A stretch of 35,721 nt of DNA, taken from the NCBI GenBank assembly GCA_009777025.1, contig WRMS01000004.1, positions 1 to 35,721 on the forward strand. The letters are read 5' to 3'. Below are positions 2,237-31,809 of the stretch, piece after piece. The position numbers were made by a program, and so were the translations under genes. This DNA is from Clostridiales bacterium (GTDB taxonomy: Bacteria > Bacillota > Peptococcia > DRI-13 > UBA5745). The notes below the pieces were generated by a model, which worked only from the letters and a program-made list of their open reading frames with translations, did no database searches and was not told where the DNA came from. The stretch's first letter is position 1. The number at the start of each line of letters is the position of its first letter.

Positions 2237-2251
2237 AGTTTCGGTTTGGTT

Positions 2252-2267
2252 GTGGGCGGCAGCCCAC
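2252..2267 (-). repeat. GC-rich hairpin 1 nt after a stop codon (GTGGGC-GGCA-GCCCAC)
   Basis: Perfect 6-bp arms immediately downstream of the minus-strand stop at 2269-2271. Confidence 0.65.
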
Positions 2268-2268
2268 T

Positions 2269-5049
2269 TTAGGGCAGCGCGACGACCTGGCTTTTGCTTA
2301 TGCCCCCGTTTTCGTTGATGTACTCGATATAGGCATAGTACGTCTTGCCGTTAACCAGGCCCCGGATATGGACGCCGTTTGCATTATAGTTCACATTGGT
2401 GTAGGGCTTGAAAGAGCCCCGCGTTCCTGTTTCGGAAAGATAGGTCGTATAGCCCTTCCCGTTCGCGGAGCGAATCATAAAGTTCAGATTGGCCTGGTTG
2501 TTGCCCGGAACAATATCGGTAACAAAGATATCTGCTTTACTGCTGATTGTGACAAGTATTGTCGCCATCTCCGAACCACAGCGTACACGCAGCGTCATAG
2601 TCGCGTGTCCCTGCATGCTGCAATCCACGTCGGAATCTGAATCCTGCAGGACCGCCGCATCATCCAGCGTGTAGTCTAAGCCGGCTGTATAGCCTTGGTC
2701 AAGCAGAAAAGCTTTGACTGCCGTTAGGAAAGACGCCGAACCCCCGATCGTATCCGCATTGGGAATAAGGATTGGCGCGCTGAGCAGGCTAAGAATATCC
2801 GACAGCGTTTCTTTCGGTGCGGTCGCCGGACGCGCGGGGATCTCCGTGTCGATAAGATAAGGGATCAGGAATACTTCATCTCCGCGCGCATCGAAATCGG
2901 CAACCCATCCGTAGACCAGACGTTCGAAGCTTTCCAGATAGTACCCGTCCTGGTTATGGTCGGTGGTATCATAGGGATCCGCCAGGATCAGCACGTCGTC
3001 AGGGGTTTCTTCCGTACCCAGGTCATCATAGCCGATGACGACTTGCCAATGCCCGCCCCACTCGTTCCATCCGATCAATACGGGATAGCCAAGGCTCAGG
3101 TAGTAGGGGATCAGGCCGTCGTCCGCGGCGCCGTCTTCCAGATAGTGATCCACGCCTTCTTCGTCTGTGATACAGCCCTCAATCAGGTCGTCCGTACTCA
3201 GGTACGCCCATTTCTTCAACGTATCCCATTCGTTGGCGGCGGCGATAGCTTGGAGGTAAAGCTCGTCTTCATTTAAACTATCGAAGATTTGCATCATATC
3301 GTCCAGCGTGGTTGCGCCGGGCGCTTGACGGCCTTCCCCCCGAAGAAGGGCCAGGTTGATCTCGCTAAGGCTGTCGTCCATAAGATCCGCCGGATCGAGT
3401 TCATATCTGCCGGCGACCTGCATCAGGAGCGTGTCGTCAACGGCGTTCAACAGTTTCGGGAGTCCCGGATTGGCGTCAAACCAATCGATTGCCATGAGGG
3501 CCGAAGTCAAGCCGCAGGTCCACTCGGTGGTCTGCTGCCGTGTCTTGAAGTTCTCCAGAATGATCAGTTCCCCGTCGCCGACTGGACTTTCGCCATTCTT
3601 CCACTGATAGAAATCATAATGCGCGTAATACGGAGACAGATTGACGAAATCATTGGGTACCCGCTCGTAACCGCCGGTAGCCGCGCCGGCAAGCCCATTG
3701 TCGCCGCGCCAGGGCGTCGCGGGATAATAGCGTTCCAAATCCGCCGCCGCACGACCGTAATCCAGCTTCATCCCATCGCCGGCGTCGCCGTCGTAGCCTT
3801 CTTTATAAGCGGTGATTCCTTCTCCCGTCTCCGCCTCATATACCCAATCCAAAGGAACAGCCGCGAGAAAGACGCCATGATCAAAGTCGGGATCAAAGCC
3901 GGCGCTCCAGTCAAAAACAAAACGCTCAAGAGACTGCACATTGTATCCGTCATTGTAGTGATCCGTCGTATCGTAAGGATCCGCCAGGATCAGCACGTGA
4001 TCCTTCGTGTCCTCCGATCCCCTATCATCATAGCCGATAATGACTTGCCAATGACCGCCGAAGCTATTCCAGCCGATCAAAATCGGAATGCCGCGGGACA
4101 ATAGTTCTTGAAATAGCGAGCCATCCATCAGCTCTTCCACCGACATCAGGTTTTGCCGTTCATCCGAAGGCTCTGTCTCTTCCTCCGCCTCTTCTTCTTC
4201 CTCTTCCGCCTCCGCCGGCGTAAGGAAGTCATAACTGGAGAGGATCTCCCATTCGCCCCATTCGCCGATACCCGCGGCATGGAGTGCGGTTAATCCATCA
4301 AATATGTTGATCATCTGCTGAAGATTCGTCGCGCCGGTCTGCCTAGGATGCTGGCGTAAAGACGACAGGTCCTGTTCGTTCAAATCGCCCCGAAGGCCAA
4401 ACCAGTCCAGCACCATCAGCGCCGATGTGGGGCCGCAGGTCCAGCCGGTAGCCTGCTGGGTCGTCCGAAATCCTTTCAGCATGGTCAGGCTTCCCCCGGA
4501 GGCGCTGTTATAGTAATCATGAAGCGGCCAATAGGTGCTGTCTTCCAGATCGCCATACGCAAGGATGTTGCTGTAATCCACAGTGGCGCCGTCAGCCCCA
4601 TATTCTTCCAGCAGTCTTTGTCCAAAGGGGATACGCCATTCATAGGCGCCGGAAAACACGCCCTCGTCGTCGATGTCGTCGTCCCAGTGCATGTCGCTAT
4701 CCCAGTAAGTTTTACTGTCCTCCCAGGATACGATCCGCAGTTCATCAGCGTTGCTGTCGCCTGTCGTTTCCCAGATCTGAACAAAGTTGCCAACGATAGT
4801 CTTCGCCGTCGCTTCCACGGCTTCAAAGTTCCCGGTTTTGCTGTTCCAAAGAAATGCGGACAAATTCTTACTGACCGGAATGTTATTTATCCTTTCGCCG
4901 TCAAAGGCGCCGACAAGCGTAAAACTTTTCAGTATGCGTCTCTCCGGTATAGGTTCCGCCTGACCTGCCGTAACGGGCGCAGCAAATAAGCTCAATACAA
5001 AGAGCAGCGCCAGAAGTAGAGAAGCTGATTTTTTCATTTTGACAATCAT
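2269..5049 (-). CDS. Secreted protein with two tandem C39-like cysteine peptidase domains
   Basis: Signal peptide MIVKMKKSASLLLALLFVLSLFAAPVTAG. Two copies of F(K/R)T-QQxTxWTCGxTSALM, GGHWQV(I/V)IGYDD and DHVLILADPYDTTDH / DDVLILADPYDTTDH. Start placed at 5049 (AAAGGGGG RBS), not the ORF-track start at 5127, which overlaps a promoter. Confidence 0.8.
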   Translation of the reverse strand: MIVKMKKSASLLLALLFVLSLFAAPVTAGQAEPIPERRILKSFTLVGAFDGERINNIPVSKNLSAFLWNSKTGNFEAVEATAKTIVGNFVQIWETTGDSNADELRIVSWEDSKTYWDSDMHWDDDIDDEGVFSGAYEWRIPFGQRLLEEYGADGATVDYSNILAYGDLEDSTYWPLHDYYNSASGGSLTMLKGFRTTQQATGWTCGPTSALMVLDWFGLRGDLNEQDLSSLRQHPRQTGATNLQQMINIFDGLTALHAAGIGEWGEWEILSSYDFLTPAEAEEEEEEAEEETEPSDERQNLMSVEELMDGSLFQELLSRGIPILIGWNSFGGHWQVIIGYDDRGSEDTKDHVLILADPYDTTDHYNDGYNVQSLERFVFDWSAGFDPDFDHGVFLAAVPLDWVYEAETGEGITAYKEGYDGDAGDGMKLDYGRAAADLERYYPATPWRGDNGLAGAATGGYERVPNDFVNLSPYYAHYDFYQWKNGESPVGDGELIILENFKTRQQTTEWTCGLTSALMAIDWFDANPGLPKLLNAVDDTLLMQVAGRYELDPADLMDDSLSEINLALLRGEGRQAPGATTLDDMMQIFDSLNEDELYLQAIAAANEWDTLKKWAYLSTDDLIEGCITDEEGVDHYLEDGAADDGLIPYYLSLGYPVLIGWNEWGGHWQVVIGYDDLGTEETPDDVLILADPYDTTDHNQDGYYLESFERLVYGWVADFDARGDEVFLIPYLIDTEIPARPATAPKETLSDILSLLSAPILIPNADTIGGSASFLTAVKAFLLDQGYTAGLDYTLDDAAVLQDSDSDVDCSMQGHATMTLRVRCGSEMATILVTISSKADIFVTDIVPGNNQANLNFMIRSANGKGYTTYLSETGTRGSFKPYTNVNYNANGVHIRGLVNGKTYYAYIEYINENGGISKSQVVALP

Positions 5050-5098
5050 GATCAATCCCCCTTTATTGGAATGGGTTCTCCCGTGAGATATCCTCATT

Positions 5099-5127
5099 AC
5101 TATAACAGGGGGACTGCGTATTGGCAA
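5099..5127 (-). promoter_or_regulatory. Sigma-A-type promoter for the C39 protein gene
   Basis: On the minus strand TTGCCA-17 nt-TATAGT. Confidence 0.65.
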
Positions 5128-5159
5128 CCATAAATTCAGTAATGCTTTCCCGTTTTACT

Positions 5160-6152
5160 TTACTTGAAGAACTCCTTGCTCAGGGCCTGAATCTCCTCAG
5201 TCAGCGTATCGTATATCCCGGGATAGGTGGTACCCGGGCCGCCCATGGTAAAGCCGGGGATAAGGTAATGCTTCCCGGATTTCTCCACTAGCTCTCGCAG
5301 TGTACTTCGCAGGGCTTCGTGAGACCAGTCTTCCTTATCAAACTTTCCGTTGTCTATGCCGCCGTGGAAGGAGATTTTTCCGCCATACTTCCGAATGAGC
5401 TCGGGGATGTTGTTTTCTGAAACCGCACCCTGATAGACGTCGATTCCCATTTCAATCATATACGGCACAAGGTTCGCGGCATAGGAATCGCTGTGGTGAA
5501 CGATGACTTGCACACCGTTTTGTTTCCAGAAGCCATACACTCTTTGATAAGCGGGAACCAGAAATTCCGCAAAGGTTTCCGGCGCGAGGAAAGATCGGGT
5601 CTGCGTCCCCCAATCGTCATGGTGGAACAAAGCGTCCGGATGCTGGTGCGCAACGATTTCCTTCGCAAGCTCGATCTCCCAGTCCGCGATATAGTCGATC
5701 ATTTCCCGTATAAATTCCGGCTCTTCATGGAAATTCGCCAGGCAATCCGTCATACCCATCAGGTAATGCAAGCGCTCAAATATACCCGGCGCCGCCATAG
5801 CGGTAGCAAAGTATTCCTTCCGGTCCACTGCCGCCATATCGTCAACGTAACGCGCCCATTCCTCCTCGGAGAAGGAGTGGGGATCAGGGGCTATGATCGT
5901 CTCCCTCCATTTGCTTATATCTTTTACCACCAGCTTATCCGGCGTATGTACCGGAAAGGGCGCTACCACATGTTCCGGCCAGGAATACGTCACGCCCCAG
6001 TCATTGACCATCGTACCGCCTTTGGGACAGGTTCCCGATCTCCCCCTGCTTACCGGGTTGGAGACAAGCTTCATATACTCATACTGATTGACAAAACGGT
6101 CAGGGTCCCCGCCGCGGATCGTTTCCAATAAGTTTTGTCTGATGGTCAACAT
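5160..6152 (-). CDS. Uroporphyrinogen decarboxylase (URO-D) family protein
   Basis: URO-D/MtaA-like features: VIVHHSDSYAANLVPYMIEMGIDVYQGAVSENNIPELIRKYGGKISFHGGID; start chosen at MLTIRQNLLETIRGG with AGAAAGGA upstream. Confidence 0.8.
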   Translation of the reverse strand: MLTIRQNLLETIRGGDPDRFVNQYEYMKLVSNPVSRGRSGTCPKGGTMVNDWGVTYSWPEHVVAPFPVHTPDKLVVKDISKWRETIIAPDPHSFSEEEWARYVDDMAAVDRKEYFATAMAAPGIFERLHYLMGMTDCLANFHEEPEFIREMIDYIADWEIELAKEIVAHQHPDALFHHDDWGTQTRSFLAPETFAEFLVPAYQRVYGFWKQNGVQVIVHHSDSYAANLVPYMIEMGIDVYQGAVSENNIPELIRKYGGKISFHGGIDNGKFDKEDWSHEALRSTLRELVEKSGKHYLIPGFTMGGPGTTYPGIYDTLTEEIQALSKEFFK

Positions 6153-6205
6153 GCCAATCATCCTTTCTTCTTCCTCTGCCACAAAGATACCACTACTGAT
6201 CAATG

Positions 6206-6676
6206 CTACAAATTCAAGCGTTCCCTAACCATGGATAACAGTTCCAGATCGCTGTTAAACGCTTTCCGTGGCGAGCCGTCCAGCCAGTCCAGAAACCCTT
6301 GCCAGGAGGTATTCTGGCGGGTTATCACATTCAGCGCAAACGTCGCGATCTTCCCCCTGGCTTGATTCACTTCTTCTTCCGTCATATTGCCGGTTTTGCT
6401 TTCGACTTCCGCCTCCTCTTCGTACGCTTCTTCCTCTTTCTCCGGGGCAGAGGAAATCGCTTTGTGATCCGTCTTTCTAAAGCTTCGTTTTTTTTGGAAA
6501 GCCCGGGGGAAATCCTGCCTGTCCAACAGGTCTTCTATTTGCAGCAAAAGATTTGCCGCATCATGAAAATAAATCGGTTCTTTCAATCGTCGGCTATAAA
6601 CATAACCCGCGATCTCGCCTTCTTCATGTTCGTCAATGGTTACTCTCAAAAACGCCATATAATGATTCAATTTCAT
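6206..6676 (-). CDS. Hypothetical protein next to the type IV pilus locus
   Basis: 156 aa, GGGAGCA before the ATG, co-directional with the adjacent PilT-like gene. Confidence 0.6.
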   Translation of the reverse strand: MKLNHYMAFLRVTIDEHEEGEIAGYVYSRRLKEPIYFHDAANLLLQIEDLLDRQDFPRAFQKKRSFRKTDHKAISSAPEKEEEAYEEEAEVESKTGNMTEEEVNQARGKIATFALNVITRQNTSWQGFLDWLDGSPRKAFNSDLELLSMVRERLNL

Positions 6677-7771: not shown

Positions 7772-7813
7772 GTTTCACTCCTTTTCGGATAAATATCGAG
7801 GTTAATGGATAGA

Positions 7814-10641: not shown

Positions 10642-10693
10642 TAGCAGCCCCTAGTTTTATCCTCCCTTTCTATATATCCTAGTTTCACTCAAC

Positions 10694-10710
10694 ATGGGGC
10701 GCTGCCCCAT
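10694..10710 (-). repeat. Palindromic hairpin repeat, copy A (ATGGGGC-GCT-GCCCCAT)
   Basis: Perfect 7-bp arms; flanked by ATATCCTAGTTTCACTCAAC, similar to the flank of copy B. Confidence 0.8.
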
Positions 10711-10766
10711 ACCCCGTCGGCACTCGCGTACATGCCGCTCATGCCTTTCGTTCACTACGTTCACGA

Positions 10767-10784
10767 GTCGCATCCAGATGCGAC
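10767..10784. repeat. Hairpin GTCGCAT-CCAG-ATGCGAC
   Basis: Perfect 7-bp arms with a 4-nt loop. Confidence 0.75.
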
Positions 10785-10789
10785 ATATC

Positions 10790-10824
10790 TGAATCCTTCT
10801 GTATCGAGTTAGCTACAGGATTCA
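10790..10824. repeat. Bulged hairpin TGAATCCTTCTGTA...TACAGGATTCA
   Basis: Arms are complementary except for a 3-nt bulge. Confidence 0.75.
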
Positions 10825-10849
10825 TCTACATATCCTAGATTCATTCTAC

Positions 10850-10866
10850 ATGGGGCGGCGCCCCAT
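10850..10866 (-). repeat. Palindromic hairpin repeat, copy B (ATGGGGC-GGC-GCCCCAT)
   Basis: Perfect 7-bp arms, 8 nt downstream of the minus-strand stop at 10875; preceded by ATATCCTAGATTCATTCTAC. Confidence 0.8.
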
Positions 10867-10874
10867 TCGTATAC

Positions 10875-11801
10875 TTAGTACACATAGTTCATGTTGTATT
10901 CGTTGCCTTCTCCGATAAACTGTTTGACCGCATTGGACGATTTCGCTGTGGAGACAAAAGTGGGATCCAGCAGCGACCACTTCTTCCCGTCCCATACGAC
11001 CGCGTACTCGATCCATCCTGTATCGTCGTCTTCAATGTAGACATTGAGCCAGGCGTGGTATACTTTGCCTGCATATCCGATTACCAGCTTGGAAGGGATC
11101 CCTTTGAGACGCAGCATGGACGACATCAGCGCCGCATAGTCGAAGCAAATGCCTTTCTTACGCTCCAGCACTTTCTCCACATCCGGAAGATATCCAGGCT
11201 GCACCGTCGCCGCCAACACCGTGTCGTAGGTCAGAAGGGCGGTGACGTCATTATAAATCGCCGTCAGAATATCCAATTGCTTGGTCTTGCCCTCTGTCAG
11301 CATATTGGCTCTCTTCTCAACTTCAAGCCCTTTCTTAAAATTCACATACTGATTCGCATAGAGAAAGGGCAGGAATTCGCTTCGCAGTTTCAACTCCACC
11401 GATGTGCTGTAGGCCTGGGCATATTTGCTGCCCTGAATGTTTTCAAAGACGCCGATGGTATACTTTCCGTTCCCCTCGGTGAGCGGAATAATCTCCGCCT
11501 TACCTTTCGGATCAATATCGTAAGAATACGCGGAACCGTCTAACCTTGAAACCTGGGCTTTGATTCGTACATCTTTGCCGCCTGTATATTGGATGATTAC
11601 ATATCCCTCTTCCAGATTGGAAGCGTCGATAGAAGCTTTGTCATTGCTATATACGGTAACGCCTGTCTTTTGCTCCTTTGTTTCGACCATGGCTTCCGCG
11701 GTCATGGGCGCAAACCCGGTTAGTAACAGCGTTACAATACCGCAAACCAACAGTTTCAGCAAGAAGGACCTGTACTTCTGTTCTGTCATGCTGATTGTCA
11801 T
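10875..11801 (-). CDS. Exported transglutaminase-like (cysteine protease fold) protein
   Basis: Signal/TM N-terminus; triad-like motifs KGICFDYAALMSSMLRLKGIPSK, VYHAWLNVYI and WSLLDPTF. Confidence 0.85.
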   Translation of the reverse strand: MTISMTEQKYRSFLLKLLVCGIVTLLLTGFAPMTAEAMVETKEQKTGVTVYSNDKASIDASNLEEGYVIIQYTGGKDVRIKAQVSRLDGSAYSYDIDPKGKAEIIPLTEGNGKYTIGVFENIQGSKYAQAYSTSVELKLRSEFLPFLYANQYVNFKKGLEVEKRANMLTEGKTKQLDILTAIYNDVTALLTYDTVLAATVQPGYLPDVEKVLERKKGICFDYAALMSSMLRLKGIPSKLVIGYAGKVYHAWLNVYIEDDDTGWIEYAVVWDGKKWSLLDPTFVSTAKSSNAVKQFIGEGNEYNMNYVY

Positions 11802-30798: not shown

Positions 30799-30813
30799 GT
30801 GGGCTACGCCCAC
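30799..30813 (-). repeat. Hairpin GTGGGC-TAC-GCCCAC
   Basis: Perfect 6-bp arms in the moxR-DUF58 gap. Confidence 0.7.
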
Positions 30814-30829
30814 GTTAGATGCATGTTAC

Positions 30830-30846
30830 ATGGGACGCTGTCCCAT
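30830..30846 (-). repeat. Palindromic hairpin repeat, copy C (ATGGGAC-GCT-GTCCCAT)
   Basis: Perfect 7-bp arms; differs from copies A/B by a compensatory G-C to A-T pair; shares the flank TAGAT(G/T)CAT(G/T)(T/C)TAC with copy B; 15 nt after the moxR stop. Confidence 0.78.
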
Positions 30847-30861
30847 AGAACGAATCTTTGC

Positions 30862-31809
30862 TCAGATATCCTCCAGCGGTACCTTTGCCTTGTTGATGAT
30901 TTTCTCAAGAATCTCCGTATAGCTATCGTTTCTTGCCGTCGTCCCCATACTCAGGCGGTGGGCCAGTATGGGAGGCGCTACAAAACGCAGGTCTTCCGGA
31001 ATGACATAATCCCGGCCGTTCAAGGCGGCGCAAGCCTGGCTCGCTTGATACAGCGCGATCGCTCCTCTGGTGGATACCCCTGCGACAAAGCGGCTCTCCC
31101 TGCGGGTGGCTTCTACGATATCCATGATGTAGCCGGAAACGTCCGCGCTGACGACCGCCTGACGATAGCTGCTTCGGATATAGGCTGTCTCTTCTTTGCT
31201 GACTTTCTGTTCGAGAGATTCCACAATATCCAGGACCGAAGGTCTGGCAATGACCGAAAGCTCCTGGCTGCGGCTCATATACCCGAGAGAAAGCCGCATG
31301 AAGAAGCGGTCGATCTGCGCTTCCGGCAGAGGAAAGGTTCCGTACGATTCCAAAGGATTCTGGGTCGCCATAACCATAAACGGCTCGTCGAGCAATGTCG
31401 TGACCCCGTCCACGGTGATCTGGCGTTCTTCCATCGCTTCCAGCAGGCTCGATTGGGTACGCGGGGTCGCCCTGTTGATTTCATCCGCCAGCACAATATT
31501 CGTAAACAGCGGGCCGGGCCGGAACTGGAAATCCCCGAGCTTTTGGTTGTAAAAATGAATCCCCGTTAGATCCGAAGGGAGAAGATCCGGTGTAAACTGA
31601 ATCCTTTTAAAGTCTCCGCCAATGGTCCTGGCAAAGGATCGGAGCAGCATGGTCTTTCCGGTCCCGGGCAGGTCTTCGATCAGCACATGTCCGGAACAGA
31701 CAAAGCAGATTAAGACAAGTAAAATGGCTTCTTCTTTCCCAATGATAACCTTCGAGCAATTCTCGACGACTTTTCGGCGGTATTCGGCAAATAACGCAAG
31801 TTCCATCAT
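30862..31809 (-). CDS. MoxR-family AAA+ ATPase
   Basis: LIEDLPGTGKTMLLRSFARTIGGDFKRIQFTPDLLPSDLTG; NIVLADEINRATPRTQSSLLEAMEERQIT; ATQNPLESYGTFPLPEAQIDRF. Confidence 0.95.
   Translation of the reverse strand: MMELALFAEYRRKVVENCSKVIIGKEEAILLVLICFVCSGHVLIEDLPGTGKTMLLRSFARTIGGDFKRIQFTPDLLPSDLTGIHFYNQKLGDFQFRPGPLFTNIVLADEINRATPRTQSSLLEAMEERQITVDGVTTLLDEPFMVMATQNPLESYGTFPLPEAQIDRFFMRLSLGYMSRSQELSVIARPSVLDIVESLEQKVSKEETAYIRSSYRQAVVSADVSGYIMDIVEATRRESRFVAGVSTRGAIALYQASQACAALNGRDYVIPEDLRFVAPPILAHRLSMGTTARNDSYTEILEKIINKAKVPLEDI

Follow-up and report, generated by a model that had tools for sequence, protein, structure and literature searches.

We found that the short hairpins of the window (the whole stretch of DNA analysed, 35,721 nucleotides) belong to a family of mobile intergenic repeats of about 150–200 nt, undescribed so far, each with up to six hairpins that follow a fixed order and occur in exchangeable versions. 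Each hairpin is very probably one slot of a non-coding mobile repeat of modular build, which lies between genes, would be moved in trans and is presumably carried in mRNA. The preliminary description had taken a single short hairpin as the unit and had suggested a REP/BIME-like element or a miniature repeat targeting gene ends. Its interpretation was partly supported, as the hairpin family was real whereas the single hairpin was found to be one slot of a six-hairpin element.

Structure of the repeat and its copies in the window

The genome of the window (G000) contained 2.11 Mb in 170 contigs and was 85% complete; the three carrier genomes, G000, G001 and the sister genome G002, were 80–85% complete. 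When the copies were aligned with one another together with 80 nt on each side, the 17-nt hairpin was found to be hairpin 5 of a full unit of about 199 nt. Full copies of about 150–200 nt contained the slots in the order 1-2-3-4-5-6. In type I, slot 1 contained a stem of 12–14 bp from the left end (TAGTAACTGACACC .. GTGTCAGTTGCTAA), followed by the presence of CGCTGCG-GTAA-CGCAGCG in slot 2, CCGC-GAA-GCGG in slot 3, GGGAT-GAGCG..CGCGA-ATCCC in slot 4, ATGGGGC-AGA-GCCCCAT in slot 5 and GGCTGCGC..GCGCAGC in slot 6, with CATCTTAG at the right end. Type III contained slots 4 and 5 in common with type I, whereas slots 1, 2, 3 and 6 differed in sequence. The window contained the following features:

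10670–10828, minus strand: full type III copy, slots 1'-2'-3'-4-5-6', with hairpin A as its slot 5 (by alignment to 7 further type III copies)
10787–10828, minus strand: slot 1' hairpin (ATGAATCC..GGATTCA), covarying stem
10767–10784, minus strand: slot 2' hairpin (GTCGCATCTGGATGCGAC), covarying stem
10748–10766, minus strand: slot 3' hairpin (TCGTGAACGTAGTGAACGA; CCGC..GCGG in other copies), compensatory pairs
10719–10745, minus strand: slot 4 hairpin (GGCATGAGC..GCGAGTGCC; GGGAT..ATCCC in other copies), common to type I, with G-C to C-G covariation in alignment A1
10694–10710, minus strand: slot 5 hairpin, hairpin A (44 genome places against 2 for the control)
10670–10693, minus strand: slot 6' (GTTGAGTGAAACTAGGATATATAG), from the type III alignment
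10829–10866, minus strand: tandem fragment of slots 5 and 6', with hairpin B at 10850–10866 (42-nt direct repeat with A, 86% identical)
30830–30846, minus strand: slot 5a hairpin, hairpin C, GGGAC/GTCCC version; identical at several other genome places
30847–30869, minus strand: 23 nt that fully match M2, one of the nested modules, at its 3' terminus as found in L132 (ATATCTGAGCAAAGATTCGTTCT)
30799–30813, minus strand: second hairpin of C, a slot-6-like remnant by sequence (GTGGGCGTAGCCCAC), lacking at the orthologous site of the sister genome
15087–15104, minus strand: diverged slot 5 hairpin, hairpin D, adjoining the TAG stop of gene 15618–15109; slots 4 and 5 here in the sister genome (L202), none in G001
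2240–2272, plus strand: right end of slot 6c (GGGCGGCAGCCCACTTTAG), by module match
7810–7812, plus strand: empty target site TAG, with a copy here in the sister genome (window GGATAG/ATCAAA, L073 AATAG/TACCTTACGG)

The hairpins A–D were present in the positions and with the sequences described earlier, and D was confirmed as a real diverged copy by hairpins 4 and 5 of the family at the orthologous site of the sister genome. The hairpin at 2252–2267 was also correctly placed; it belongs to the family, as had been proposed, but it is the right end of slot 6c and not the same hairpin. The covariance model R1 matched the minus strand at 10690–10789 (E 3.9e-11), and the fold z of 10660–10872 was −4.5. 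A and B lie within one 42-nt direct repeat, the full copy and the fragment together span 10670–10866, and module matching showed 5-6' fragments elsewhere too, in G002. At C, nucleotides 30847–30869 included the TGA stop of gene 31818–30862, and the sister genome also had 16 of these 23 nt. We considered whether this flank is the end of a host gene that was captured; the 23 nt match the M2 module end instead, but as part of them is shared with the sister genome, either history may apply. Gene 5127–2269 takes its TAA stop from the CTAA of the slot 6c end, and its G001 homologue extended about 25 residues further at the C-terminus, a tail which is missing in the window gene. At 4181–6443 the window contained stretches of low complexity with much TCCTCCGCCTCTTCTTCTTCC, which correspond to acidic or serine-rich segments of the proteins and recur in neighbouring genes.

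Slot modules were assigned by short BLAST, with slot 3 scored together with slot 2. The versions found were 1a/1b/1c/1t3, 2/2t3, 4, 5/5a/5b and 6a/6b/6c/6t3. The fetched part of G000 contained 44 architectures at 69 places and G002 contained 35 at 59 places; the order 1-2-4-5-6 was held in nearly all of them. The versions combined freely, as in 1a-2-4-5-6a, 1a-2-4-5b-6c, 1b-2-4-5a-6a and 1c-2-4-5-6b, and slots are recombined between copies as alternative versions. Many copies were cut down to 1, 1-2, 5 or 6, and a few copies of G002 were tandem or had an additional slot 6 in front. Two nested hairpin modules were found. M2, of about 107 nt, lay between slots 4 and 5 and in one case within slot 6c; M3, of about 50 nt, lay within slot 6 and, reversed, within slot 4. 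A separate single-hairpin insert (GTGGCTGTGCGC..GCGCAGCCGTATTGATAG) was present at L185:7628 in G000 and not in G002, at a TTTA site and with TAG at both ends; it is perhaps a further module of the same element system. At L185:6433–6690, several hairpins contained GATGAGTCCATGCA and GAACGAATCTT in common with M2 and differed in the rest, forming a second M2-like family.

Base pairing of the hairpins

Alignment A1 contained 15 copies, and 10 of the 49 pairs of its consensus structure showed double-sided compensation. Double-sided changes were found in 34 cells, against 11.8 ± 2.6 after shuffling, which leaves the relatedness of the copies in, and 2–7 with slid partners; 96% of the cells were paired. 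The covariation is strong. Hairpin 1 alone contained six double-sided pairs, and for slot 1 of type I there were three or more versions, which differed in their stems and still paired. The pair that distinguishes GGGGC/GCCCC from GGGAC/GTCCC, first noticed between hairpins A/B and C, was recurrent, with G-C in 8 of the 15 copies and A-U in the other 7. Departures from pairing on the sense strand were G-U in 35 cells (16 pairs) and A-C in 5 cells (5 pairs). Since the departures were mostly G-U and rarely A-C, folding is more likely on the strand shown. The six-hairpin structure is conserved by base pairing.

Template switching that corrects palindromes could have produced some of the apparent covariation. 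Short palindromes without mismatches readily undergo such correction and the alternative stem versions are often perfect, so that the compensatory changes might represent corrected DNA palindromes with no structural selection at all. We consider this unlikely in view of the excess of G-U over A-C on one strand, the preserved slot order and the sense bias of the copies given below, none of which is decisive; it is an alternative to the conserved structure and not to the mobility.

Distribution, mobility and target site

The sequence ATGGGGCNNNGCCCCAT was found at 44 palindromic places in G000 with at most 2 mismatches and at 2 places for the reversed control, which bears out the repeated hairpin family; a few of the 44, the weakest ones, were chance matches (e.g., C22, C36, C51 and L026). 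A DNA search of G000 gave 43 full or partial matches. The genome scan with a covariance model, which had been proposed earlier, gave by threshold 34–48 matches in G000, 22–26 in G002 and 3–4 in G001. R1 had no match in two further genomes of the genus, both 98% complete, or in the other 41 genomes of the class compared. When the GTDB collection was scanned with the pattern, with records very near the window's own possibly left out, the sole match was the MAG Clostridiales bacterium Th196P4bin44 (contigs L036–L038); this is G002, of the same genus as G000. Among the genomes compared, the repeat is limited to three species of one genus. We take the name Th196P4bin44 to point to the termite gut, and the carriers are apparently termite-gut bacteria. 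Phage records and viral contigs contained no copies. No Rfam family was above the gathering score on the window or on four element loci, and micro-RNA matches at L004 were rejected as chance, being far below the cut-off.

Orthologous stretches of G000 and G002 were about 85–95% identical and contained filled and empty sites in the pairs L050 and L237, L048 and L229, L191 and L210, L076 and L187, L042 and L220, L084 and L211, L079 and L213, L088 and L215, and L073 and window position 7810. Given in element orientation, the junctions were TTTAG/AAACTG..GTTAG/TGGAATG in L050 and TTTTTAG/CGGAATG in L237, AGATAG/TGACTT in L048 and AGATAG/AGAATAAC in L229, CTTAG/TAACTG..GTTAG/T in L191 and CTCAG/TGTCG in L210, and GCAATAG/TACC..CTTAG/ATATTA in L076 and GCAATTG/ATATTA in L187, respectively. 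The empty sites matching L042, L084 and L079 were TTG, and the copy of L088 lay directly after a TAG stop codon, with L215 as the empty counterpart. The same site contained different slots in G000 and G002 at hairpin D and L202, L014 and L160, and L007 and L197. The element is mobile, as T(A/T)G sites occupied in one sister species were empty in the other. TAG was found at both element ends and TAG, CAG or TTG at the empty sites, which fits a duplicated target or fixed ends.

A different, unrelated repeat with flanking inverted repeats of about 20 bp (GTACC.CGTTGCA.CTAAAAGTTA) was found in G001 at L093:18461–18625, directly after the gene orthologous to window 10875–11801, which is the intergenic site of A and B. 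Its end was found once in 0.77 Mb of G001 and in none of the sampled stretches of G002 and G000.

The 3-nt TAG direct repeats and the small, non-coding, structured unit are also what would be seen in a MITE of a DDE insertion sequence, like RUP or ERIC, whose recognisable ends had been lost. Such an origin is unlikely: the aligned copies contained no terminal inverted repeats (left TAGTAACTG, TAGTAAC; right CATCTTAG), slots were swapped and lost independently, and no full-length relative was seen among the transposase families selectively searched.

The REP/BIME elements moved by RAYT (Y1 HUH transposase), suggested in the preliminary description, are likewise palindromic, repeated, intergenic and close to gene ends; the left-end TAG resembles their GTAG tag, and G000 alone contained two TnpB fragments. 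Yet the search for a RAYT/IS200-like transposase proposed there found no Y1_Tnp (PF01797) in G000, G001 or G002, where at 80–85% completeness the gene could be missed, nor in G003, and G004, which had one, lacked the repeat. In addition, the unit of about 200 nt with six hairpins is not a GTAG-tagged REP of 20–40 nt, and the stem foot of hairpin 5 is without GTAG. Membership in this class is therefore very unlikely. Compared with the IS200/IS605 type, the ends were compatible (TAG target on the left, TTAG on the right), TnpA was not found and TnpB occurred as fragments only. An IS110 bridge-RNA recombinase was not found in the carriers (80–85% complete). A group-II-intron-like reverse transcriptase of 354 aa was present in G000 (L238:1144–2208), with none in G001 or G002, and was rejected as common mover since it was in one of three carriers only. 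Among the fetched loci, pairs of nearby matches showed no copies enclosing a gene, as an autonomous version would.

Gene context and proposed mechanism

The genes were called by a simple codon-usage caller and are approximate. One of 80 called places lay inside a coding sequence, as a chance match, and the others were intergenic. The copies lay between codirectional (55), convergent (9) and divergent (13) genes, against a background of 264, 30 and 41, so that the configuration equals the background. Between codirectional genes, the strand check proposed earlier gave 44 sense and 11 antisense copies (p 9e-6). The ratio was 19:1 for short copies (<60 nt) and 16:8 for long ones, and the bias differed between copies <100 nt and long copies (Fisher p 0.04). 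It was 28:4 for leading-strand genes and 9:5 for lagging-strand genes, replication strand being confounded with transcription; at divergent or convergent gene pairs, 11:5 copies pointed towards the leading strand. The sense bias may reflect selection after insertion, the remnants being more biased than the long copies, or insertion on one replication strand.

Hairpins B, C, D and 2252–2267 lie 8, 15, 4 and 1 nt after minus-strand stops (ORF ends 10875, 30862, 15109 and 2269), as noted before. As a general rule, placement right after stops held in a modest form: 23 of 55 copies were found at most 20 nt from the stop upstream, against 14.6 expected under uniform placement in the gap (p 0.002), and 8 copies near downstream starts were below expectation. 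The enrichment arises in part because TAG stops serve as targets (L088; D in G002) and in part because both element ends carry stop codons. The claim of a mobile repeat targeting gene ends thus stands for the mobility, whereas the targeting of ends is weak. A species-specific type I copy was found immediately upstream of a putative prfB with a programmed frameshift site (CTTAGGGGGTCTCTTTGAC) at L006:1572–1700.

Ordinary rho-independent terminators or operon-junction RNA hairpins alike by convergence would share the sense bias, intergenic location and strong GC stems, but this explanation is extremely improbable, as no U-tract follows A–D (an earlier observation that holds), hairpin 5 has co-linear neighbours over 200 nt at 80–98% identity, species-specific insertions occur at precise sites and antisense copies are present.

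We propose that the modular repeat is non-autonomous and that an enzyme acting in trans would read not terminal inverted repeats but its hairpins, in the form of RNA or single-stranded DNA. TAG, also where it is a stop codon, would be the site of insertion, and the stops in both ends (TAG TAA on the left; CTAA read from the right) would make insertions at gene 3' ends harmless. The sense-transcribed chain of hairpins would then be placed in 3' UTRs and operon junctions, where sense remnants would preferentially be kept. Being mostly in sense orientation, the copies are presumably carried in the mRNA of flanking genes, where the chain would probably affect mRNA stability or coupling; a stabiliser or attenuator function, as had been suggested, is possible. 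More speculatively, the repeat might be a structural cassette, in which an enzyme reading hairpin shape exchanges slots singly and inserts chains or single hairpins at TAG, possibly via an RNA or single-strand intermediate; we regard this as quite unlikely.

Previous studies described the pneumococcal BOX as small, intergenic and modular (boxA-boxB-boxC) with a variable number of modules, predicted to fold when transcribed, thought to be mobilised in trans and able to alter gene ends (PMC3049150). The likeness to BOX is one of behaviour, in the modular build and variable module content (44 and 35 architectures here); the host is another, no sequence common to both is known, and the two are likened by build and behaviour. 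In yeast mitochondria, GC clusters are hairpins flanked by AG or ACT which undergo shuffling (PMC4478555). The likeness to these clusters and to double-hairpin elements is an analogy in behaviour only, as the clusters are mitochondrial, of about 42 nt, and have no fixed-order cassette of six slots. REP/BIME and REPINs with RAYT are repeated intergenic palindromes with alternative complementary stem residues and tolerated G-T pairs (PMC3733652, PMC3116915). These features are found in both, whereas the present unit is much longer and multi-hairpin, without a GTAG-tagged unit of 20–40 nt and without a RAYT found in the carriers. The bcr repeats of the Bacillus cereus group are structured and interspersed, of about 150 nt. 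They resemble the present repeat in these respects, by description only, and we know of no modular slot exchange in them. The bcr repeats are mentioned in PMC2267715. By analogy, the element is grouped with the small, structured, modular interspersed repeats, with BOX and the GC clusters as closest analogues.

From the filled and empty sites it can be seen how small structured repeats spread and are reshuffled within the operons of bacteria; for BOX, REP and the hairpin elements of organelles, this question is still open. The fixed order of six covarying hairpins, the exchange of versions, the nested hairpins and a TAG target with no inverted repeats lead to predictions on the mobilising enzyme and on the effects on operon mRNA. 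If the structural cassette reading were true, the unit of transposition would be the hairpin, and the order would be held by the function of the folded chain.
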